A stretch of DNA of 64,000 bases, taken from assembly GCA_033584155.1 (NCBI GenBank), contig CP138355.1:3791826-3855825 (forward strand). Reading direction: 5' to 3'. The notes beneath the pieces were generated by a model. The model worked only from the letters and a program-made list of their open reading frames with translations. It had not been told where the DNA came from and did not search any database. Origin of the DNA: Candidatus Electrothrix scaldis (GTDB lineage Bacteria > Desulfobacterota > Desulfobulbia > Desulfobulbales > Desulfobulbaceae). Positions 49,912-62,254 of this stretch are shown one piece after another (position 1 is the first letter of the stretch; the number at the start of each line of letters is the position of its first letter). Made by a program: the position numbers and the translations under genes.

Positions 49912-49975
49912 GAGCATACAAACTGTAAATGTCTACCAAACATTTAATCTTCACGATGAAGGAGTTTGTATGCTC
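49912..49975 (+). promoter_or_regulatory. Hairpin sequestering the transposase start codon
   Basis: GAGCATACAAACT (49912-49924) is the perfect complement of AGTTTGTATGCTC (49963-49975). The right arm contains the ATG (49970-49972) and abuts the AAGGAG ribosome site. In transcripts entering from outside, the stem would hide the start; a transcript initiating inside the element would lack the left arm. Confidence 0.75.
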
Positions 49976-51418
49976 ACATATCTATATGACTCACTATACG
50001 GTTTTCGTAAAGTATTTTCCCGTCATCGCACCTGGTTAATCTTTGTGATGATAGTTTTGGGGTTCATCGGTAGCAGCGAAATGACAGGAGTTTCTTCCTT
50101 CTGCCGTTTTTGGCTGATAGACAATCAAGGGTACTCTAAGTTACTGGGACTTTTTCGTTCTTCAGCCTGGGAATTAAGTGGCTTGCTGGAATACTGGTCT
50201 GTTTTTGCTGTCTACCAACAACAGTCTGTTTTTTCGCAAGGTAGACTGGTTACACTGGGAGACCATACATATGTCCCCAAGGAAGGTCGCCGAATGCCCG
50301 GTGTTGTAACTTTACGCCAAGACTCTGAAACACAAAGCAAACCCTCGTATTTCAGAGGTCAGTGCTGGGGAGGCCTGGCTTTGGCCGTTGGCAGTTTGAC
50401 AACTCCTTTTGCACTACCGTTAAATTTACGTCTGCATCAAGGCTCCATTCATTTAGGGGAAGCCAGAGAATCATCTTTGACTTTGGGAGAGCAGATGGTT
50501 CAAATGGCGATTGATTTTGCTCTTCAAACGAACCAGGGTGTTGTCTTGGTTCTGGATGCTTTTTTTTCTGTAGGTCCGGTGTTTCTGCTGGCTCAGGCAA
50601 CCTGGCTGACGTCAATTGAAGCTCCTGCTGTTCATATTATTACAAAGGCAAAGAAGAATTATGTCGCATACTTCCAGGCGGATCCATCTCATTATACAGG
50701 AATAGGTCGTCCCTGTAAGTATGGAGAGCATATTCATCTGGCGGAAGTTTTTGACCATCTCCATTTGTTTCATAAAGTATCGGTCCGTATCTACGGACAT
50801 ATGGAGGAAATTTATATTTTTCACCTGGATTTATTATGGAAATCTACTCAAGGGCTGCTTCGTTTTGTTTTTGTCAAAACGTCACGTGGCCCCATTGTTC
50901 TTATGTGCAGTAACCTCGACCAGGACCCGATTGCTGCAATCGAACTCTATTGTCTCAGAACCCGCATAGAAACCATGTTCGATATGCTGAAAAATGTTCT
51001 CCATATCTTCCAATGTCACTTCTGGTCGAAAAAAATGCCGAAACATTCGAGGAAACCCAAAAGCAATAAAAATCAAAAGGCTCCACAGGCAGAAAACCAG
51101 AAAACGGTTCAAGCTTGCTGGGATGCTACTGAACGTTTTGTTAACCTTGGAGCAGTTTCCCTTGGTTTGCTTCAGTTAATCGCCCTCAAATTTCCAGAAG
51201 AAATATGGAGCAGATTTGAAGGATTCTTGCGGACCCGTTCTCGGGATATCCCTTCCGAGAGAACTGTCAAAATGGTGATTGCTAATTTTTTGGTACAGGA
51301 TTTTCTCAAAGTCGCGCCAACAGCGACAATGCGAGAAATTCGTGCCAAGATTCTCAAGGGCGAATTTAAGAAAAAATTCCCTCAAACTGAACACCCCGTT
51401 AATCAACGGGCAGCTTGA
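49970..51418 (+). CDS. IS4-like transposase
   Basis: An intact 482-residue DDE transposase. Candidate catalytic blocks are RLVTLGDHTYVPKEGRRMPG (first Asp), VVLVLDAFFSVGPVF (second Asp) and a Y-(2)-R-(3)-E-(6)-K-like signature, LYCLRTRIETMFDMLKNVL, with the third acidic residue. That signature supports the IS4 superfamily; subgroup not determined. AAGGAG is at the start. Confidence 0.87.
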   Translation: MLTYLYDSLYGFRKVFSRHRTWLIFVMIVLGFIGSSEMTGVSSFCRFWLIDNQGYSKLLGLFRSSAWELSGLLEYWSVFAVYQQQSVFSQGRLVTLGDHTYVPKEGRRMPGVVTLRQDSETQSKPSYFRGQCWGGLALAVGSLTTPFALPLNLRLHQGSIHLGEARESSLTLGEQMVQMAIDFALQTNQGVVLVLDAFFSVGPVFLLAQATWLTSIEAPAVHIITKAKKNYVAYFQADPSHYTGIGRPCKYGEHIHLAEVFDHLHLFHKVSVRIYGHMEEIYIFHLDLLWKSTQGLLRFVFVKTSRGPIVLMCSNLDQDPIAAIELYCLRTRIETMFDMLKNVLHIFQCHFWSKKMPKHSRKPKSNKNQKAPQAENQKTVQACWDATERFVNLGAVSLGLLQLIALKFPEEIWSRFEGFLRTRSRDIPSERTVKMVIANFLVQDFLKVAPTATMREIRAKILKGEFKKKFPQTEHPVNQRAA

Positions 51419-52039: not shown

Positions 52040-52849
52040 TCAATCCTTTTCCTCTTCTTTTTCTTTAAGAGAATTTATAATTTGATCAGCCTTCTTAAAA
52101 CCGGGAAGAACTCGTCCGTCAGGCATGATTAATGTCGGGGTGGAAGCAATGTACAGTTCCTTAGCCAAGACGATATTCTTATCAACAATATCAGATTTGC
52201 ACTCAGCTTTTGGCAGCTCTTTCTTGCTCAAACTATCTTCAAGAAGTTGCAATGCTTTGTCATTCTCGCCTTTCAGCTTGGTGCAAACAATAGTTTGTGC
52301 TTTTCCTTTAGCATTAGGATGCATAGCCAAGGGAAACATTTTAATCAAAAAGGTAATGTCAGGACGCTGCTTAACAACCTTTTTCATTTCTGAGTGCAAC
52401 TTACTACAGTATGAACACTCTGGATCGTCAAAAACAATAATCTTATTTTCCGCAGCAGCATCACCAAGAACAAGTGCATCATCCAGAGATATCTTTGCTC
52501 TATCAACCTTGTTCATTTTAACAAAGTTTTCCTGAGTGACATTCTCGTTATTTTTCAATCTGATCACATTACCGCTGATTAAATACTTCTTGGAAAAATC
52601 CATATAAAACGGAATCTTTTGACCATTATAAACAGCTTCAATATCCCAGAGTCCTGGCACTTCACTTCGCTTGACATCCAGAACCTCTGTTACCTTCCCT
52701 TTAAGCAATTGGGCGACCTCATCCCGATTAACAGAATGACAGTCACGGCAATCACCAGCTCCGCACCCTGCTTCCTGAAAGGCCATAGCTTGACCAGCTG
52801 AAAATAAGGTAATAAGAAACAAAGAAAGAAAAATTTTATTGCAATTCAT
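52040..52849 (-). CDS. DsbC-like thiol:disulfide interchange protein
   Basis: A secreted thioredoxin-fold protein of about 269 residues (ATG at 52849; two nearby upstream starts are possible). A signal peptide (IFLSLFLITLFSAGQAMA) is followed by CGAGDCRDCHSVNRDEV, containing a CxxCH that could bind heme or metal. Next comes a DsbC-type N-domain and then the thioredoxin domain with active site FDDPECSYCSKLH and cis-Pro ASTPTLIMPDG. It probably isomerises disulfides or handles apocytochromes. Confidence 0.85.
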   Translation of the reverse strand: MNCNKIFLSLFLITLFSAGQAMAFQEAGCGAGDCRDCHSVNRDEVAQLLKGKVTEVLDVKRSEVPGLWDIEAVYNGQKIPFYMDFSKKYLISGNVIRLKNNENVTQENFVKMNKVDRAKISLDDALVLGDAAAENKIIVFDDPECSYCSKLHSEMKKVVKQRPDITFLIKMFPLAMHPNAKGKAQTIVCTKLKGENDKALQLLEDSLSKKELPKAECKSDIVDKNIVLAKELYIASTPTLIMPDGRVLPGFKKADQIINSLKEKEEEKD

Positions 52850-53018
52850 AATAACCATCACTATACGTTGTTCTTTTTGTTTAAGTAAACGATGAAAATT
52901 TTTTCCAACATCCGCTGGTAACTATTCAGAAAAGCAGTCAAGAACACATAAAGAAAACTATAAGACCGTGTCCTCAACCATATTTAAGAGAAGCATGAAC
53001 GTTCTCTTGAAAGCCAAG

Positions 53019-53381: not shown

Positions 53382-55772
53382 TCATTTCACCCGCAACACC
53401 TTTACTCTACGCTGTATCTCGCTATTTTCAGGATCAAGCACCGCAGCTTGCTCATACTGTTTGATCGCGAGCTCTTTCTTCCCCCTCTTTAAATATATCT
53501 CACCGAGAAGGATATGAAAAGGAGCATAATCCGGTAAGTAGCGCAAAGCGACTTGGAGTACATTTTCAGCCTTTTCATCTTTTTTTTGGGTTCGATAATA
53601 CTGAAAAACCTCAGAAAAATACTGCGGCAGCACCCTGGAATCATTATCGATAAAATCCAGTGCATGTTCTATAATAAAATGGAACTCACTTGATCGTTTT
53701 TCATTCTTGACTTTATTCCAGAAACCTAGCCAAGATGATGTTTTTTGTGGTAGCATTTCTGCAACGTATTTTTGATTCACCTGATACTTAATTAATACTT
53801 GATAAAGCGAAGCAAGCATTCTGGGGTCACGCTCAACTTCCCTTCTTAACCTGACTCTTCCCTCTTTCCCTGTTCGCTGGCTGAGCTCAAAGGCTGCCCA
53901 GGTTTGAAAGGCAAGCTTCTTTTGATCAGCTCTTTCATATCCTCTTTTCAAGAGGTTTCGTGCCAGCTCCAAATCAGTAGCTGCGACAACATGACCAAGC
54001 TGCTGGAGAAAGGTAAAGCTCATGGGTTGTTGCCTTACGGCTTCTGCTGAGAGCCTCACCGCCTGTTTATCCTGCCCCTGTAAGCTTTTTAACTTTGCTA
54101 ATGTATGGGAATACAACCCTGTGACAGGATCAAAAGCCCTTGCTTCTTCAAGGAGCATAGACATTTTTTCTACCCGATCAACAGGAGTAAAGCGTTCCAG
54201 AGAGGAAACCTGCCTTGCTTTACGATATTTCCTTTCTGCCCAGACCTTTCTTCCTTGATAAAATAAGGTTGCGCCGAAAAAAGCCAGTATCGCAGTAAAG
54301 ACCAAGATGTTGCGCCAATAATTTGGTTTCAGAAGAGGCAGTAATGTCGGTGAATCCTGGTAATAGCGTCTGGTGTTTCCAGCAGAAACAAGCAAACCAG
54401 CCAGGAAAAAGAAATAGAGTCCATTAGCTCCATTATGAAGATTGAAATCAAATCCACTATAAACTAACAGGCCAGCCAGACCACTGAACGCTCCTACTGC
54501 GGGAAAGACAGAAAAGCTGTCTTTTCGTAAACGAATCATTTTATATCCGGCATGTAGTACACTTACGATAAACCACCCTCCCAACAGCCCAGCAGGTACG
54601 CCACCATCGCTAAGTAACTCCAAAAAATCGTTATGCGCGTGGTCATAGAAGAGGTCATCAGGAAGGGTTTTATAGCTTGGGAAAATATCTGCAAAAGTCC
54701 CAAATCCACTCCCTGTCAGAGAAAAATCTTTTATTATCCGAAAAGTATCTTGCCAAATCAGCAGCCGATCATCCTGTATTCTGCCAGTTTTACTGTCGAA
54801 AAGGGTGAGAAAGCGTTCACTTATTGGCTCCCAGTTGTACCAACCAACGAGAACGAGAAAACCCGCAAAAAGAATAAGCAACTGAACTTTGCCCATTCTT
54901 TCCTTTTGTCGAAAAATGAGAAATAAAAAAAACAACAGGCTGAAAATAATACTTAGAATACCACCGCGCGACTGGGTAAGAAAAACTGAGGCAAAAATAA
55001 CAATACTGCCAAAACCCCAGCCCAAATACAGAGCCGTTTTGCTCTCTGAAAAAAAGGCGACTATTTTTCCTCTGAGCGTATCCGCCCTCCCATATACAGG
55101 TCGATACAAAAAAAACTGGGACAACACAAGGGGACAGAGCATAACCATAAAACCAGCATAATGGTTTTTATATACCCAGGGACCGAATGCTTGCTTTCCA
55201 TCTGACAACTTACGGAACCAGAAAAGTGTATCAGGTGCTGTTATTCGCTGTAATATAGCAAAGAAAGCTATGCAAATAGCTAAGCCTGTGACGAGCGTAA
55301 TTGTTAAGCGCAGCTTCCTACTGCTCGTGAGCAGTTGAATGGTCAACACATAAAAAAGTGCATAGGAGCTTAGTCGAAGTACCTCAAGCAGAGTCTCCTT
55401 ATAATTAACGGTAAGAGGAAGCCAAGTATAAAGATCACCTAGAAGATCACCTAGAGTCGGCAAGGTGAGAATCGGTTGATATGCCTGATAAATGTTTGGC
55501 GCAACTATGCGCACAAGAGAGAGAGGAAGAGGAATGAGCTGTAACAGCATCCAAGCCAAAAGCAGAAGCAAAGGAAGTATGCCCGGAACTCGATAATAGT
55601 TTGAGCTTGCTTTTTTACCAGCAGAAGGGAGAAAATAAAAAATGCCTGCAAGAGCGACAAGAAGCTCTACGGTGATGATTGACCAGTTCTCGGTCGTGCC
55701 AAAAGCAAGCGGTGCAAAAAATAACGTGGCCAGAAAAAGGAAAAAGGATATTGCTTCACTCCGAACCTGCAT
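53382..55772 (-). CDS. O-antigen ligase/polymerase (Wzy/WaaL) with TPR tail
   Basis: A 796-residue polytopic membrane protein. Around a dozen helices (residues ~10-470) carry the Wzy_C/O-antigen ligase motif, with TGSGFGTFADIFPSYKTL and HAHNDFLELLSDGGVPAGLL in the large periplasmic loop. The C-terminal third is a helical repeat (TPR) domain ending YLKRGKKELAIKQYEQAAVLDPENSEIQRR. It polymerises or ligates the polysaccharide made by this locus. A 12-bp in-frame tandem repeat (55431-55454) gives LGDLLGDL. It lies 7 bases downstream of the wzc-like gene. Confidence 0.9.
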   Translation of the reverse strand: MQVRSEAISFFLFLATLFFAPLAFGTTENWSIITVELLVALAGIFYFLPSAGKKASSNYYRVPGILPLLLLLAWMLLQLIPLPLSLVRIVAPNIYQAYQPILTLPTLGDLLGDLYTWLPLTVNYKETLLEVLRLSSYALFYVLTIQLLTSSRKLRLTITLVTGLAICIAFFAILQRITAPDTLFWFRKLSDGKQAFGPWVYKNHYAGFMVMLCPLVLSQFFLYRPVYGRADTLRGKIVAFFSESKTALYLGWGFGSIVIFASVFLTQSRGGILSIIFSLLFFLFLIFRQKERMGKVQLLILFAGFLVLVGWYNWEPISERFLTLFDSKTGRIQDDRLLIWQDTFRIIKDFSLTGSGFGTFADIFPSYKTLPDDLFYDHAHNDFLELLSDGGVPAGLLGGWFIVSVLHAGYKMIRLRKDSFSVFPAVGAFSGLAGLLVYSGFDFNLHNGANGLYFFFLAGLLVSAGNTRRYYQDSPTLLPLLKPNYWRNILVFTAILAFFGATLFYQGRKVWAERKYRKARQVSSLERFTPVDRVEKMSMLLEEARAFDPVTGLYSHTLAKLKSLQGQDKQAVRLSAEAVRQQPMSFTFLQQLGHVVAATDLELARNLLKRGYERADQKKLAFQTWAAFELSQRTGKEGRVRLRREVERDPRMLASLYQVLIKYQVNQKYVAEMLPQKTSSWLGFWNKVKNEKRSSEFHFIIEHALDFIDNDSRVLPQYFSEVFQYYRTQKKDEKAENVLQVALRYLPDYAPFHILLGEIYLKRGKKELAIKQYEQAAVLDPENSEIQRRVKVLRVK

Positions 55773-55779
55773 TTATCCC

Positions 55780-58074
55780 TTATTTTTTACCTTCTTCCGT
55801 ATAGTACCCCCCTTTACCTTTACGAGAGTAGTAGGAATAATATCCGTAGTAGCCCTGCCCTGCATGCTTTTTGGTTACACGATTGAGCACCAAGCCCAAC
55901 ATATGTGCGTTGCTTTCACGCAACTTTTTGATTCCACTATCAAGCATATCAAAAGTAGTTTTTCCCGCCCGGAGGACAGTAACTGTCCCATCAACTAAGC
56001 TAGCCAAAAGCAGGCTATCAGTTACCTGTTGTACAGGTGGTGAATCCAGAAGAACAAAGTCAAAGCGCTCCATAGATTTGCTCAGCAATGTTTTCATCCG
56101 CTTAGAACCTAGTAGCTCCGCAGGATTGGGAGGAATAGGCCCTGATGGGAGTACAGATATCTTGCTATCTGGTATTTGTTGAATCAAAGCAGGTTGCTGT
56201 TCATCAGTATTACCAGAAAGATAATTACTCAGTCCATAGGAGTTATCCACCCCAAACATAGAATGCTGTCTGGGACGGCGCATATCGCAGTCAACAATTA
56301 ATATCCTCTTATCATTCTGAGCCAGAATAGTGGCGAGATTCTTGGTTGTTGTACTTTTCCCTTCTTGCTGCATCATACTTGTGACTAGAAGAGTTCGAGG
56401 AGGATGATCTGGTGTGGACAAAAGTAAGCTGGAGCGAATCAACCTATAGCTCTCTGCAAATGCTGAAAGGGGGTTCTCCTGAATAAACGTTTCAACGTTC
56501 TTTCCTTTTTTGGGCAGATCTTCCACCGCACCAAGGACTGTGAGACCATAGCGTTTTTCCAACTCTTCTGCTGAGCTTGCTGTATTATCAAGGAAATCCA
56601 GAAAAAAGACTAAGGCTACGCCTACACCTAGTCCTATAAACAGCCCGAGCATTAATTCTTTCTTCTTATTCGGAGTGGTGGGGTAAGTAGGAAGGTCGGC
56701 CTTCTTGATTGCCCAGATTCTGATATCCATAGCCTGGGCTGTGACGTTCGTCTTTTTTATACTGCTCGACAACGCATCGTACACCGTTCTATTCATTTCC
56801 TTATCACGATTCAGGATACTAAATTGAACAGAAAGCTCATTCATATCCTGCAACTCTGCCTTTGTCTCCTTCAGCATTTTGGTCAAATCTTTGACCCGAG
56901 TTTTGGCAAGTTCATAATTATTTTTTGCCACCTCAATGACTCGCTCAACTTCCATACTTTTCTTTTTTAACAAAAGTTCCTGGTCAGCCCGAGCCTTTAT
57001 CATCATTGGGTGTTTTTCACCATACTTTTTGGACAACTCTCTGATATTCTGTTCAGCAGTAAAAAGTTCCCCCCGCAGGGCCTGCAGCTCTGCATTATCT
57101 GCAAGCAGGGGGATTGCTTCGAGTTTTTTATCATTCTTCCCTACGGCCTTTATTTGACGATAAACAGCCGCATGCTTCTTTTCCTCTGTCTGCGCAGCAG
57201 AAAGAGCTGAACTGAATTGTGAAAGACGTTCAGGGAGTACACTCAGCTTATTCTCTACAGTCACGATATCGCTTTTTCGCATATATTCCTGCAAAGCCTT
57301 TTCTGACTCCTCAAGCTTTTTTCTTTCTTCATCAGCTTTGAGTGTCATCCAATTCAGGCTATGTTTTGTGGTACTCGTCTTTATATCTAAAGTTTCTTCA
57401 ATATATGCCTGCACCACACCATCAGCAACAAGCTGAGCAATTTTCGGAATCCGATGTGTATAGCTTACATTGACTATTTTTGTATCACGCACAGGGGTAA
57501 GGGCAAGAGACCCTTGAATCATACCTGCAATTCTTTCCGCATCAGTTTTTTGCTCGTTCGGAAATATCGTTTTATCTTGCAGAGATGGGTCAGTAGAAAT
57601 ACCCTGGTCAGAAAGTTGCTCATTCTCTATTATTGAAGCCAGGAAACTTTTTCCAGAAGAAATAGCTTCAGAAAGGAATGATGTAATAATATGAGCAATA
57701 CCAGGACGACCAGTTGGTTTCTCAGAAAAATATTGTTTGTACTTAGTGTCAAGCTCCTGATTTTTTACCACTCTGAGGGCTACATTAAAACTCCGGATAA
57801 GCTCAAATTGTGTTGCCTTGAAATCAGGATCCCACCTCATATATGTTGCCAACCCTTCGAGCTGGGCTTTTTCTTGATTTTTTTCAATCAAAACCTGAGT
57901 AGTTGCAGTATAAAGCGGTATTTTCGAAAAAGTAAATAGCGTACTCGTCAAAAAAATAATAACAGCGACAGCGATGATCAACCATTTCCGCTTTTGCAGG
58001 ACACGGATGTAATCAATCAGGTGTTTTGAACGTACTTGTTGCGAAGGCTCTATTATGGATTCTTCTGGATACAT
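55780..58074 (-). CDS. Wzz chain-length determinant / BY-kinase fusion
   Basis: Controls polysaccharide chain length and export by cycles of tyrosine autophosphorylation. The 764 residues comprise a Wzz domain with TM1 (LIIAVAVIIFLTSTLFTF), a long coiled coil (~250-430), TM2 (ELMLGLFIGLGVGVALVFFL) and a cytoplasmic kinase: Walker A TSMMQQEGKSTTTKN, Walker A' ILIVDCDMRRP and Walker B DFVLLDSPPV. The Tyr-rich tail GYYGYYSYYSRKGKGGYY is the autophosphorylation cluster. A key component of the EPS export machine. Confidence 0.93.
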   Translation of the reverse strand: MYPEESIIEPSQQVRSKHLIDYIRVLQKRKWLIIAVAVIIFLTSTLFTFSKIPLYTATTQVLIEKNQEKAQLEGLATYMRWDPDFKATQFELIRSFNVALRVVKNQELDTKYKQYFSEKPTGRPGIAHIITSFLSEAISSGKSFLASIIENEQLSDQGISTDPSLQDKTIFPNEQKTDAERIAGMIQGSLALTPVRDTKIVNVSYTHRIPKIAQLVADGVVQAYIEETLDIKTSTTKHSLNWMTLKADEERKKLEESEKALQEYMRKSDIVTVENKLSVLPERLSQFSSALSAAQTEEKKHAAVYRQIKAVGKNDKKLEAIPLLADNAELQALRGELFTAEQNIRELSKKYGEKHPMMIKARADQELLLKKKSMEVERVIEVAKNNYELAKTRVKDLTKMLKETKAELQDMNELSVQFSILNRDKEMNRTVYDALSSSIKKTNVTAQAMDIRIWAIKKADLPTYPTTPNKKKELMLGLFIGLGVGVALVFFLDFLDNTASSAEELEKRYGLTVLGAVEDLPKKGKNVETFIQENPLSAFAESYRLIRSSLLLSTPDHPPRTLLVTSMMQQEGKSTTTKNLATILAQNDKRILIVDCDMRRPRQHSMFGVDNSYGLSNYLSGNTDEQQPALIQQIPDSKISVLPSGPIPPNPAELLGSKRMKTLLSKSMERFDFVLLDSPPVQQVTDSLLLASLVDGTVTVLRAGKTTFDMLDSGIKKLRESNAHMLGLVLNRVTKKHAGQGYYGYYSYYSRKGKGGYYTEEGKK

Positions 58075-58203: not shown

Positions 58204-59883
58204 TTAGAAAAAACTTTCAGGCACGACAATAACATCCTCCGGCTGAACCAGAGCATCATGCTCAACATCTTCAAGTACTTGTTTTTCCCCATTAACCATA
58301 CGATTAATGGTAATACTTGATTCCGATGCGATACCGGTAAAACTACCAGCTAATGAAACCATTTTAAGGACTGTAGTGTTGCGACCGCAGGGGTATGCTC
58401 CAGGCCTGTTAACCTGGCCTGTGATATAACAAACGGCTTCTTTTTTCGCAGCACTGGCTGGCACAACGACTACATCATCAGGACGAAGTAAGGTATCTTG
58501 GTTAACATTTTGAAAAATTTGTTTGCGCCCATTCACCTGTCGATTAATTTGAATCCCAGACTCCAAGGCCTTATCAGTAAAGCCTCCCGCCCTGGTCAAT
58601 AATTTCAAAATACTGGTACTATCCGAACATGGGTAGGCTCCGGGTCGAGTTACTTCACCAGTAATGTAGCAAACAGCCTCTTTTTTCACAGCACTTACTG
58701 GAACGACGACTATATCCTCTGGTAGAAGTACAGTATCTCTATTGACACTTTTTAAAACCTGCTTCACACCATTAATCGTTCGATTAACCTCAATTCCTGA
58801 CTCTAAAGCAGAGCTTGTGAGGCCACCAGCTCGAGTCAATAACTTAAGTATACTTGTGTTGCTGGAACAGGGATAAGCACCAGGTCGATTTACTCCTCCA
58901 GTAATATAGCAAAGCCTTTCTTCTTCTTTGCTAATAGTACGCTCTGGTACAATAATAACATCATCAGGTTGCACCAGCGTATCCTGGTTTACATTTGGTA
59001 CAACTTTCTTCACCCCATTAATCGTTCGATTAATCTTAAGTCCAGCTTCCAGGGCGTTTTCAGTGAAGCTTCCTGCCTGAGAGACAACTTTAAGGACTGT
59101 CGTATTACGACCACATGGATATTCCCCGGGCTGATTAACCGCACCAGTAATAAAGCAAACAGCCCCTTCAGCAATGGTTACGGTATCTCCGCCTTGAACC
59201 AAAATATTCTGTCGCGAATCGCCTGTTCTTATGAGCCGATCAAGATCAACAGGTATATTTTCCTGTATACCATTTTTCTGCCTCTTGATCATTGCGGTTT
59301 GTCCGGCATTTTCTTTCAAACCACCTACCTGGGAAATAAGCTCCAGCAACGTTGTTGGTCCATTTAATTCAACAAGACCTGGTGTATGTACAGGACCAAG
59401 AACAACAACTTTCTTACTTTTAAATTGCTCTATGAATATAGTAACCTGGGGTTCAACAATATACCCATTAGCTAAGGCTGACTCTATACGTTCAGCAGCA
59501 GCAGAGATACCTTGGCCTCCGACATCAACCTGACCAATCAAAGGAAATTCTATTGTGCCTCCCTCTGAAACCCGAACTTTTACCGTTAACTCCTCATGGT
59601 CATAAACCTTAATAGAAAGGACATCTCCTGCTCCAATAGCATATTCGCTCTTTTTTTGCACCGCTGGCTTCTCATGCAGCTGCTGCGGTGACCGTGACAC
59701 ACTACTTAGTGAAGGAAATGTCAGCTGTGGCACCTGAGGGGCCGTATTACCTAAGGCACCAGGATAATTAGCAGCAAAAGAGAACGTCGAAATCGTTAGT
59801 GAAATCAGAATAAAAATAATGAACAATACTACCTGTAATCTCACTGTTTTTTGGGAAATACAGTGCACTCTTCTTCTTAACAT
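58204..59883 (-). CDS. Polysaccharide export protein with four Cys-paired SLBB repeats
   Basis: A Wza-like outer-membrane export component of 559 residues from the ATG at 59883. After a signal/anchor (LQVVLFIIFILISLTISTFS) comes the Poly_export domain (YAIGAGDVLSIKVYDHEELTVKVRVSEGG), one standard SLBB, then four near-identical ~80-residue SLBB repeats to the C terminus. Each begins CYITG (or CFITG) and has a second Cys in PGxYPC 14 residues later (243/257, 325/339, 405/419, 485/499). Typical family members have one or two SLBB domains without Cys. Lies 129 bases upstream of wzc. Confidence 0.9.
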   Translation of the reverse strand: MLRRRVHCISQKTVRLQVVLFIIFILISLTISTFSFAANYPGALGNTAPQVPQLTFPSLSSVSRSPQQLHEKPAVQKKSEYAIGAGDVLSIKVYDHEELTVKVRVSEGGTIEFPLIGQVDVGGQGISAAAERIESALANGYIVEPQVTIFIEQFKSKKVVVLGPVHTPGLVELNGPTTLLELISQVGGLKENAGQTAMIKRQKNGIQENIPVDLDRLIRTGDSRQNILVQGGDTVTIAEGAVCFITGAVNQPGEYPCGRNTTVLKVVSQAGSFTENALEAGLKINRTINGVKKVVPNVNQDTLVQPDDVIIVPERTISKEEERLCYITGGVNRPGAYPCSSNTSILKLLTRAGGLTSSALESGIEVNRTINGVKQVLKSVNRDTVLLPEDIVVVPVSAVKKEAVCYITGEVTRPGAYPCSDSTSILKLLTRAGGFTDKALESGIQINRQVNGRKQIFQNVNQDTLLRPDDVVVVPASAAKKEAVCYITGQVNRPGAYPCGRNTTVLKMVSLAGSFTGIASESSITINRMVNGEKQVLEDVEHDALVQPEDVIVVPESFF

Positions 59884-59946
59884 GACCACTAGCGTTGGTT
59901 AGACATTACTTGAGAATGAATATAGATATTAGACGGTTTTACAACA

Positions 59947-61473
59947 TTAGAATGTGCCACGAGCACTAATACCTACGATATTGGTTTCATAATCCAGCTC
60001 ATCATAATTGGAATCTTTCTTGTCAAAGCCGTAATACAGGGAGAATGTAAGCCACTTTCTAAAAGCGTAGTCAAGGCTTGGGCTAAAATTCCATCGCTCA
60101 TCAAGACGGGAGTCTCCATCAAACTGAGCATAGTCAGAGTCCTCGTAAATAAAATTCAGCGCACCTCTCATGCGACCAGTAAAACGATACCCATAGGCAA
60201 GACGAGATGCCCAGACTGTTTTATTCAAAGCATACTCGCTATCAGACTGCTCAATGCTATATTTTGAGTTCAACAAAAATTCACTTTTCCGGGTGGCCAG
60301 CCACGTCCCCTGCATTTCGAAGGAAAAACTATCTTCCCCGTCATTTAAGGTATCAGCAACTCCCTCAGCTCCGTCATCATTCCAATCTTCATCATAATCC
60401 ACCATCTGGTACCCAGCACTGAACTTGAATCCAGTCTTCACAGTAGCCTGCCAGTTCATTCCCGCCTGAAGAAAAATATTATCATTATCCGGCATATCAT
60501 CTTCTTCATAAGCAGCTTTCAGTAACGAACCACTAACAAAGAAGCTCGTCTTCGGGCTGTAATCATAGGCCAAGGAACCATCAAATCCATGATCTGAGCG
60601 ATCCATGAAGTTATTAACATCAAGATCATAGATTAATAAATGGTTCGTATAGCCTACTCGCGCTGAAACTTTATCGGAAATTCGCCAGTCAACGCCGCCT
60701 TTAAACACATTGGTGTCATACACACGATCATTTTCAGCATTTGCTTCAGCAATATTAAAAATATCCTGACTGTGTGAGTAATTATCCATGAGTTGCAAGG
60801 TCAAACGTTCATAGGGTTTATATACCACCTGCCCCTGAAGCCCACCTTCTGCATGATTAAGCTCTGAATCTGCCGAATAGGTCATGAAATCCATTTTTCC
60901 AGCAAAATAGAATTCTACCTTGTTATAAACATCATATTCATTCTGACTGTACTGCAATCCTCCCACTGAGGTATTATCCGCAGCAACCTGCAAAGGACGT
61001 CTGCTCCTTCTTGGCCAAGTCAACCACACAGAAGGAGAAATAGTGGTAAGAAAATTTTCTTCTTTATCTGTATCGGTATTATACAGGTTATCGCTCCATT
61101 CTCCGTTTACCCCTAAGGAAGCATGAAAATATCCATTGCGATAGCCAAATACCCTTCCATCAGCGTCTATCCTTTCTTCTTCATCGATTTGCATCCTCTG
61201 ATAACCAATGGGATCGTTTGCCAGTATTGTTGTATCAGCAGGAGCAACAGGAGTCACGATAGACGGCATGTCTTGTTTTTGCACTGTACTCGCCGGAGAT
61301 GAGGAAGTATTCTTGCCTGGGATTTCATCATTATAAATTACAGTTGCCATTGGCAGATCTGCTCGTAATGATTTATCAGCTTTATTATATTCCTGAGCTT
61401 CTACAATATTAGCCTGTGAACTCAAGAAGAGAAACAAGGCACTGCTTATGTACTTTTTAGACCGGCTTTCCAT
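59947..61473 (-). CDS. Outer-membrane beta-barrel of the EPS locus
   Basis: A 508-residue secreted protein predicted to form a beta-barrel. It has a signal peptide (YISSALFLFLSSQANIVEA), an N-terminal linker, then alternating Tyr/aromatic strands such as NGYFHASLGVNGEWSDNLYN, FSAGYQMVDYD and WLTFSLYYGFDKKD, ending in an aromatic residue (SARGTF), as outer-membrane barrels do. Proteins like this occur in exosortase-type and other EPS clusters and may form the export pore. Confidence 0.82.
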   Translation of the reverse strand: MESRSKKYISSALFLFLSSQANIVEAQEYNKADKSLRADLPMATVIYNDEIPGKNTSSSPASTVQKQDMPSIVTPVAPADTTILANDPIGYQRMQIDEEERIDADGRVFGYRNGYFHASLGVNGEWSDNLYNTDTDKEENFLTTISPSVWLTWPRRSRRPLQVAADNTSVGGLQYSQNEYDVYNKVEFYFAGKMDFMTYSADSELNHAEGGLQGQVVYKPYERLTLQLMDNYSHSQDIFNIAEANAENDRVYDTNVFKGGVDWRISDKVSARVGYTNHLLIYDLDVNNFMDRSDHGFDGSLAYDYSPKTSFFVSGSLLKAAYEEDDMPDNDNIFLQAGMNWQATVKTGFKFSAGYQMVDYDEDWNDDGAEGVADTLNDGEDSFSFEMQGTWLATRKSEFLLNSKYSIEQSDSEYALNKTVWASRLAYGYRFTGRMRGALNFIYEDSDYAQFDGDSRLDERWNFSPSLDYAFRKWLTFSLYYGFDKKDSNYDELDYETNIVGISARGTF

Positions 61474-61580: not shown

Positions 61581-62117
61581 TCAGGGGCTGGAAGGACTGG
61601 CTGGGCGAGGTCTTGTGGGGGGATCTACATGCTCTGGCAAGGTCACGTGCTCTGGGATGGGAACAAGTTCTCGATCACCTAACCCAAGCCTTCTACCTGG
61701 TCCACCATCAATAAGATCACGATCACTCAGCCCAAGTCTTTTACCAGGTCCACCATCAAAAAGATCGCGGTCACTCAAGGTTTTTTTGTCCCCACACTCC
61801 GCGATGCTTTCTTCAAGTGCGACACTCAGATCTTCAACTGTAATGCCAAGTTTATTTGCCGCCTCACGAACTGCATCCCTATCAGCCCCTGCGCAGTAGA
61901 GAGCTTTCAATCCTACTTTCGTTTGAAATTTTTCACTGTGACTTATAATAAAACTCAAAATTTCATCAGGAGTTATATCATTATGTAAAGCCTCTTCCAC
62001 AGCGACACTCATACCGAACTCATCATAATCCGACACAAAATCGTCCTGCCAGTTCGCCTGAGCAATCCCGGCTCCAAACAAAATCATCAGCACCGTAATG
62101 CAAAGAATCTTCTTCAT
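61581..62117 (-). CDS. Secreted protein with DRDLxDGGPGxRLGL repeats
   Basis: A 178-residue protein from the ATG at 62117 (GGAGGG upstream). Signal peptide (ILCITVLMILFGAGIAQA), a helical domain with two Cys (LYCAGAD, IAECGDK) and then tandem copies of LSDRDLFDGGPGKRLGL, LSDRDLIDGGPGRRLGL and a degenerate LGDRELVPIPEHV, followed by a Pro-rich end. The family is not recognised. Its place beside the EPS block suggests a cell-surface or matrix role. Confidence 0.7.
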   Translation of the reverse strand: MKKILCITVLMILFGAGIAQANWQDDFVSDYDEFGMSVAVEEALHNDITPDEILSFIISHSEKFQTKVGLKALYCAGADRDAVREAANKLGITVEDLSVALEESIAECGDKKTLSDRDLFDGGPGKRLGLSDRDLIDGGPGRRLGLGDRELVPIPEHVTLPEHVDPPTRPRPASPSSP

Positions 62118-62254
62118 GTTCCCTCCAGCCAATCTTTATTTTTTTCTTCACCCGTATAAAAATTTAAATTATTCTATCCGGTAAATAAACAAAAGTAAAT
62201 ATATCTTTCTTCGATTTTATCTTGCATAAGGAGCTGACGACCTGTCTCCATTTT

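Follow-up and report, generated by a model that had tools for sequence, protein, structure and literature searches.

A class-3-type polysaccharide export protein with tandem cysteine-paired SLBB domains in Candidatus Electrothrix scaldis

The export locus and the class of its OPX protein

The stretch of DNA analysed here (the window) comprises 64,000 nucleotides of the single-contig, 5.09-Mb genome of Candidatus Electrothrix scaldis (contig CP138355.1). The genus group of this genome includes Candidatus Electrothrix gigas, a cable bacterium, of which AU1_5 (QYLO01000003.1) also has the gene described below. On the reverse strand of the window lies a gene for a polysaccharide export (OPX) protein of class-3 type (58204..59889), open over 561 codons from a GTG at 59889; the ATG at 59883, two codons downstream, gives 559 codons and is the preferred start, and residues are numbered here on the 561-residue frame. 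A putative signal peptide (59770..59883), read by eye and modelled as an N-terminal helix, ends at about SFA-A without a lipobox cysteine. It is followed by a Poly_export domain (D1; PF02563; residues 78-153, 59431..59658; 76.8 bits against a Pfam cut-off of 28), a cysteine-free SLBB domain (D2; SLBB_2, PF22461; residues 159-239, 59173..59415), and four SLBB domains that each carry two cysteines: repeat A (residues 245-319, 58933..59157; C245 and C259), repeat B1 (residues 327-401, 58687..58911; C327 and C341), repeat B2 (residues 407-481, 58447..58671; C407 and C421) and repeat C (residues 487-561, 58207..58431; C487 and C501), the last of which ends the protein with VPESFF. A ninth cysteine, at residue 10, belongs to the signal peptide, and all eight of the mature protein are paired at i, i+14 (C-x13-C), one pair per repeat. 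The Pfam family PF10531 (SLBB) matches five stretches in total (162.3 bits); the four extra repeats of a preliminary description of the locus are thus present, with the cysteine spacing of 14 residues that it gave, and their start-to-start distances of 240, 240 and 246 bp agree with its period of about 240 bp.

The neighbouring genes are transcribed in the same direction. Upstream is a gene for an outer-membrane beta-barrel protein (Pfam BBP2_2; 59947..61473), the presumed pore partner, and downstream are genes for a PCP/tyrosine autokinase with hits to Wzz, GNVR and AAA domains (55780..58074) and for a Pfam Wzy_C (O-antigen ligase/polymerase) protein with C-terminal TPRs (53382..55772). In the loci of the best 80 of 135 relatives, Candidatus Electronema sp. 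KV (JAPEVH010000063.1) among them, a beta-barrel homologue adjoins the OPX gene in 65 of the 67 loci with more than 1.2 kb of upstream DNA, a PCP gene lies no more than 400 nt downstream in 76 of 80 (in three of the other four the sequence ends there), and Wzy_C homologues are found in most of the longer loci; judged by these comparisons, the gene order barrel-OPX-PCP is old. A small secreted protein encoded at 61581-62132 (reverse strand) has no Pfam or NCBIfam hit, and its gene contains a 48-bp tandem repeat (61665-61778). Its homologue lies upstream of the barrel gene in 31 of the 57 loci with enough DNA (again among the best 80 of 135 relatives), and it may be a conserved part of the exporter.

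The features found are those of a class-3 OPX protein: a Poly_export domain, at least one SLBB domain, neither Wza_C nor GfcC among Pfam hits at E 0.001, and a BBP2_2 beta-barrel encoded nearby. The barrel-OPX-PCP order and the absence of Wza_C and GfcC hits indicate a class-3 arrangement (compare PMC9603273 and PMC9601211), as judged by Pfam and the C-terminal end of the structural model, whereas the survey in PMC9603273 used HHpred as well. Other class-3 proteins (PMC9603273), among them EpsY/EpsX (PMC9601211) and WzaB (9n9a), likewise combine Poly_export and SLBB domains, lack a membrane helix and are encoded next to a barrel and a PCP; WzaB also ends in VPESFF. The window protein differs from them in having five SLBB domains, four of them cysteine-paired, whereas the Myxococcus class-3 members consist of D1 and D2 only (PMC9601211). 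Wza of Escherichia coli (PDB 2j58 and 2w8i) shares the fold of D1, D2 and D3 but has a C-terminal membrane helix of its own (PMC9601211), whereas the window protein has none and possesses three more D3-like domains. The preliminary description took one or two SLBB domains to be typical of Wza-type proteins, which is true of Wza but not of the wider survey, where class-3 proteins have one to seven and class-1 proteins one to 14 (PMC9603273); by these counts, OPX proteins with many SLBB domains are already known as such. The main text of that survey makes no mention of cysteines or disulfides. Among the titles and abstract beginnings of the literature matches listed, none concerned cysteine-paired SLBB domains in polysaccharide export, which falls short of proving absence, and no paper was found that joins 'cable bacteria' with 'polysaccharide export'.

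The window protein exceeds the curated cut-off of the NCBIfam EpsE model TIGR03028 (276.2 against 262.65 bits) with three repeat stretches summed, whereas its relatives L040 and L065, with one repeat each, reach 168 and 172. EpsE belongs to an XrtB/PEP-CTERM-type locus, whereas the window genome has no exosortase match; an exosortase/PEP-CTERM system was considered and rejected (PF09721 in 0 of 1 genome, control rings 1 of 14).

Copy number and descent of the repeats

At E 1e-25, the repeat region was matched in 61 of the 257 genomes of the order, comprising seven of the eight genomes of the genus and 54 others; the eighth (G004, 89% complete) has no match. The seven genus genomes have three to five copies of the cysteine-paired SLBB domain. 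The five complete proteins contain three (G002), four (the window, G005 and G001) or five (G003) copies, with the middle type, B, present once, twice or three times, respectively. G006 has three copies up to a contig end, the first of them cut at its start and left out of the identity figures below, and in G007 the arrangement A-B-B-C is split among three frames. The OPX gene of G007 (near 1819411-1821123 of contig C1; L114, 8912-10645) falls into several frames, with the breaks close to the repeat linkers; this may represent a pseudogene, contingency switching or sequencing error, indistinguishable from one another.

Outside the genus, the OPX open frames in the 54 genomes with a match are 258-325 residues long, and none of these genomes has a protein with more than one domain carrying both cysteines (CC). 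The last SLBB domain (56 proteins in the 54 genomes) is CC in 45 proteins from 43 genomes, has a single cysteine in eight genomes and neither in three. Single-repeat OPX proteins of Desulfobulbales (L035, L038 and L039) have the same locus order and the same cysteine pair in their terminal SLBB domain, but only one such domain against the three to five of Electrothrix. In a sample of the phylum, 11 of 395 genomes match at E 1e-22, with frames of 267-363 residues apart from the window's own; the view beyond the phylum is that of the locus list (best 80 of 135 relatives), Nitrospirota included. The multi-copy array is found in several assemblies and in only one genus among the genomes searched.

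The preliminary description considered the repeats highly alike at the DNA level, and saw in this near-identity a basis for changes in repeat number by recombination. Compared over 75 codons, the four copies in the window have DNA identities of only 59-68% and protein identities of 52-69%, their best ungapped 182-nt stretch is 70% identical, and Tandem Repeats Finder gives no call for the array; near-identity is therefore not a property of the window copies, nor a basis for change among them. Repeat number does change between species, as the comparison among genomes bears out. The suspicion of an assembly artefact, which tandem repeats within a single-contig genome may arouse and which the preliminary description tied to the case that no relative shows the architecture, has next to no probability: A-B-B-C recurs in G005, also a single-contig genome, and in G001, a separate assembly, G003 and G002 have the same type of arrangement, and the window copies are unlike at 32-41% of DNA positions. 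Misassembly of the window array was rejected on this divergence and recurrence.

A tree of the repeats has few columns, and 41 of its 74 inner forks are open, but type A, the first repeat, occupies one side of a branch with support of 95, and type B has support of 98. Type C, the last repeat, lies closest to the lone domains of relatives (mean identity of 52%, versus 42-43% for A and B); the tree neither establishes nor rejects it as a single clade (p-AU 0.63). In G003, the three B copies cluster together (support 94). A and C are orthologous between species, and B varies from one to three copies. The simplest history would start from one terminal domain, the forerunner of C, with A and B arising in the ancestor of the genus and B duplicating further. 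We regard the evolutionary statements about the amplification as firm.

Two other OPX proteins are long without comparable cysteines. G005 encodes a second OPX protein of 703 residues with six SLBB stretches and no cysteine pair (L028, 1036-3144), an independent lengthening, and a relative in Desulfobacterales encodes one of 439 residues with four SLBB stretches and no cysteine past residue 45 (L036, 65-1381), another lengthening. In both, Poly_export is followed by several SLBB domains, and it is the missing cysteine pair that sets their repeats apart from those of the window protein.

These two lengthenings, and the DNA identity of 92-94% among the three middle copies of G003, would suit neutral drift, in which recombination enlarges and shrinks the array and the exporter is unaffected. 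We give this explanation little credence, as A and C are present in every complete protein of the genus, a second CC domain is absent from all 54 other genomes of the order with a match, and both cysteines are retained as the remaining sequence diverges (22 repeats share 16 invariant positions out of 75, but were picked by a motif that includes the cysteines).

The cysteine pair

Among 105 distinct proteins and fragments, read with an HMM made from the window repeats, the last SLBB domain has both cysteines in 55, neither in 41, only the first in seven and only the second in two. The pair is widespread in Desulfobulbales, including genomes outside the cable genera. Loci without either cysteine belong mostly to Nitrospirota, Desulfobacterales and Desulfuromonadales, and have pairs like F/Y, Y/Y or V/V at the two sites; CC also occurs under Myxococcota (four) and Pseudomonadota (one), placed as titled in metagenome-assembled genomes such as 'Deltaproteobacteria bacterium'. 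When cysteines past residue 45 were counted (six of the 105 rows left out), 39 of 46 full-length single-repeat CC proteins had exactly two, and 33 of 37 single-repeat proteins without either had none at all. All five complete proteins of the genus have two cysteines in each repeat and none elsewhere past residue 45, and the HMM found no D3-type repeat without a pair in them. On a tree of the N-terminal part, four and three changes suffice for the two sites, and a paired test of change, with only four pairs, gave none in the same direction, one opposite and three unchanged; the coupling of the two sites is thus accounted for by a single origin, or a few, and by itself tells little. In the Electronema genus group (g10; L174/L040, L126 and L143), all three genomes have a broken pair (CW, CW and AC) and one ring.

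In the AlphaFold model, the first cysteines of the repeats (245, 327, 407 and 487) lie within strands 244-249, 326-331, 406-411 and 486-491, and the second (259, 341, 421 and 501) directly after strands 255-258, 337-340, 417-420 and 497-500, so that in four of four repeats the pair sits at facing ends of the first SLBB hairpin. While A, B and C diverged, the pair was kept, and both cysteine codons are in use at each site. This geometry and this retention make a disulfide within each domain likely. The window genome has two DSBA matches and one VKOR match, with the VKOR and DSBA-type domains sharing an open frame (G000:C1:3725255-3726334; L181 and L180); DsbB has no match in it. The disulfide-pinned SLBB domains of the preliminary description are therefore supported but not proven, by the modelled hairpins, the lack of unpaired D3-type repeats and the DsbA-type and VKOR proteins.

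The cysteines may instead be thiols lining the collar, with a role in metal binding or in reversible redox switching. Cable bacteria meet sulfide as well as oxygen (PMC10580974), and one cysteine alone is kept in eight of the 54 genomes of relatives; yet the pair is common in Desulfobulbales outside the cable genera, its spacing spans one hairpin, and where it is missing the sites are mostly filled by bulky hydrophobic residues (for example F/Y, Y/Y or V/V), as neighbours across a hairpin would be, all of which makes metal or redox chemistry quite improbable.

Less has become of the suggestion that a nearby DsbC-like protein (52040-52861; DsbC_N domain, CSYC site) services the OPX protein. In the window, G005, G003 and G007 its gene comes after the cluster, and in G002 it is on another contig, but among 37 relatives the protein was found in 11. 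It was not found in G001, G009, G010, G020 and G034, all of which have the cysteine pair, but was found in G031, G032 and G035, where the OPX protein has no match. A dedicated partnership was rejected, as presence does not track the pair, within the limits that incomplete assemblies set to this comparison. An IS701-like transposase (49970-51418, forward strand), scoring under its curated cut-off, is encoded beside the DsbC-like gene.

Stacking of the domains and reach of the exporter

The AlphaFold monomer (mean pLDDT 84.3, pTM 0.44) has last strands that reach residue 556 of 561. Over residues 78-317 it resembles Wza (rmsd of 3.3 over 234 at Z 17.2; Foldseek E 3e-21) and the solved class-3 protein WzaB, for which Foldseek gives E 5.7e-16, although the rmsd is 6.9 at Z 15.4. 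The matches of repeat A are ComEA (rmsd of 0.9 over 60, Z 10.5) and GfcC (rmsd of 1.6 over 70, Z 10.2), and GfcC structures turn up in Foldseek through the common beta-grasp fold. In VIA-align, the model ranges 157-244 and 482-561 alone are spanned by at least a fifth of the rows. Repeat A joins D2 without a low-confidence linker, but pLDDT falls below 50 at the linkers B1-B2 (400-403) and B2-C (480-483); with the pTM, these linkers leave the relative placement of the repeats unsupported.

They would also be consistent with the extra domains being flexible beta-grasp binding arms beside the conduit, rather than rings, holding peptidoglycan, the fibre sheath or the glycan as it grows, and the varying number of middle copies would suit beads on a string. 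However, A and C are orthologous while B varies, as expected if both ends dock, A follows D2 as D3 follows D2 in Wza, and a single-chain model tells little about an oligomer. Binding arms are, on this evidence, rather unlikely.

The length of the PCP bears on a stacked arrangement. Measured between hydrophobic peaks by simple hydropathy, in rows that are not independent, the stretch between the two membrane segments has a median of 442 residues (427-447) in seven loci of the genus and 430 (378-443) in 70 single-repeat loci. In the model of OPX+PCP bridging, a short OPX protein is offset by a long PCP (PMC9601211). As PCP length was kept, every extra domain most likely supplies one more ring, which in Wza measures about 30 Å; the Wzc-Wza conduit has an estimated length of about 160 Å (PMC9601211). 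If the domains stack, simple arithmetic would give about 180 Å for six OPX domains and about 90 Å for the three-domain relatives. The tall periplasmic collar of the preliminary description is plausible to this extent: SLBB number rose without shrinkage of the PCP, and the stacking itself is presumed. Whether the added domains make a taller conduit is, in our estimation, evenly balanced.

The preferred interpretation is that hairpin-stapled SLBB domains are stackable spacers, which lengthen the periplasmic conduit of a class-3 OPX exporter, and it is on balance somewhat probable. The OPX protein would be the periplasmic subunit of a Wzx/Wzy-type exopolysaccharide exporter in Candidatus Electrothrix and, having no membrane-spanning C-terminal helix, may hand the polymer to the adjacent beta-barrel, by analogy with other class-3 systems. 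In Desulfobulbales, the cysteine pair at the two ends of the first beta-hairpin of the terminal SLBB domain is most likely an intradomain disulfide staple. In Electrothrix, the stapled domain would have been duplicated into three types: A adjoins D2, C, whose C-terminal VPESFF is conserved, probably meets the beta-barrel, and B, in one to three copies, would act as a spacer between the two. Every additional domain would most likely contribute one ring, presumably octameric, to the conduit. Counted against stapled spacers are the pTM of 0.44 and the weak linkers, the few independent cysteine changes and the outcome of the paired test (0/1/3), the genomes outside the genus with one cysteine (8/54) or none (3/54), the lack of a DsbB match, and the second, Wza-like OPX protein of the genus, which is not enlarged (frames of 352-426 residues versus 353-365 in four other genomes).

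The fibres of cable bacteria are about 50 nm wide and lie in periplasmic ridge compartments (PMC6307468). The number of B domains could conceivably be a molecular ruler that fits the reach of the exporter to an envelope widened by these conductive fibres, with the disulfides rigidifying the column or sensing sulfide, a distinctly speculative and doubtful extension. The second OPX protein, of similar length in this genus and in four other genomes, and the Electronema group, with one ring and no intact pair in three of three genomes, speak against a simple ruler. In an Electronema strain the membranes are mostly inseparable between fibres, and in an Electrothrix strain the fibres are more rectangular (PMC11976967); if the ruler were true, Electronema, the other cable genus, would differ from Electrothrix in the site or manner of surface-polysaccharide secretion.

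With three to five cysteine-paired domains, an unshortened PCP and single-repeat relatives as controls, the genus offers a natural series for the bridging of the periplasm by OPX and PCP proteins. The locus also points to a putative surface-polysaccharide exporter in cable bacteria, for which gliding has been reported and polysaccharide excretion discussed in connection with it (PMC10580974).
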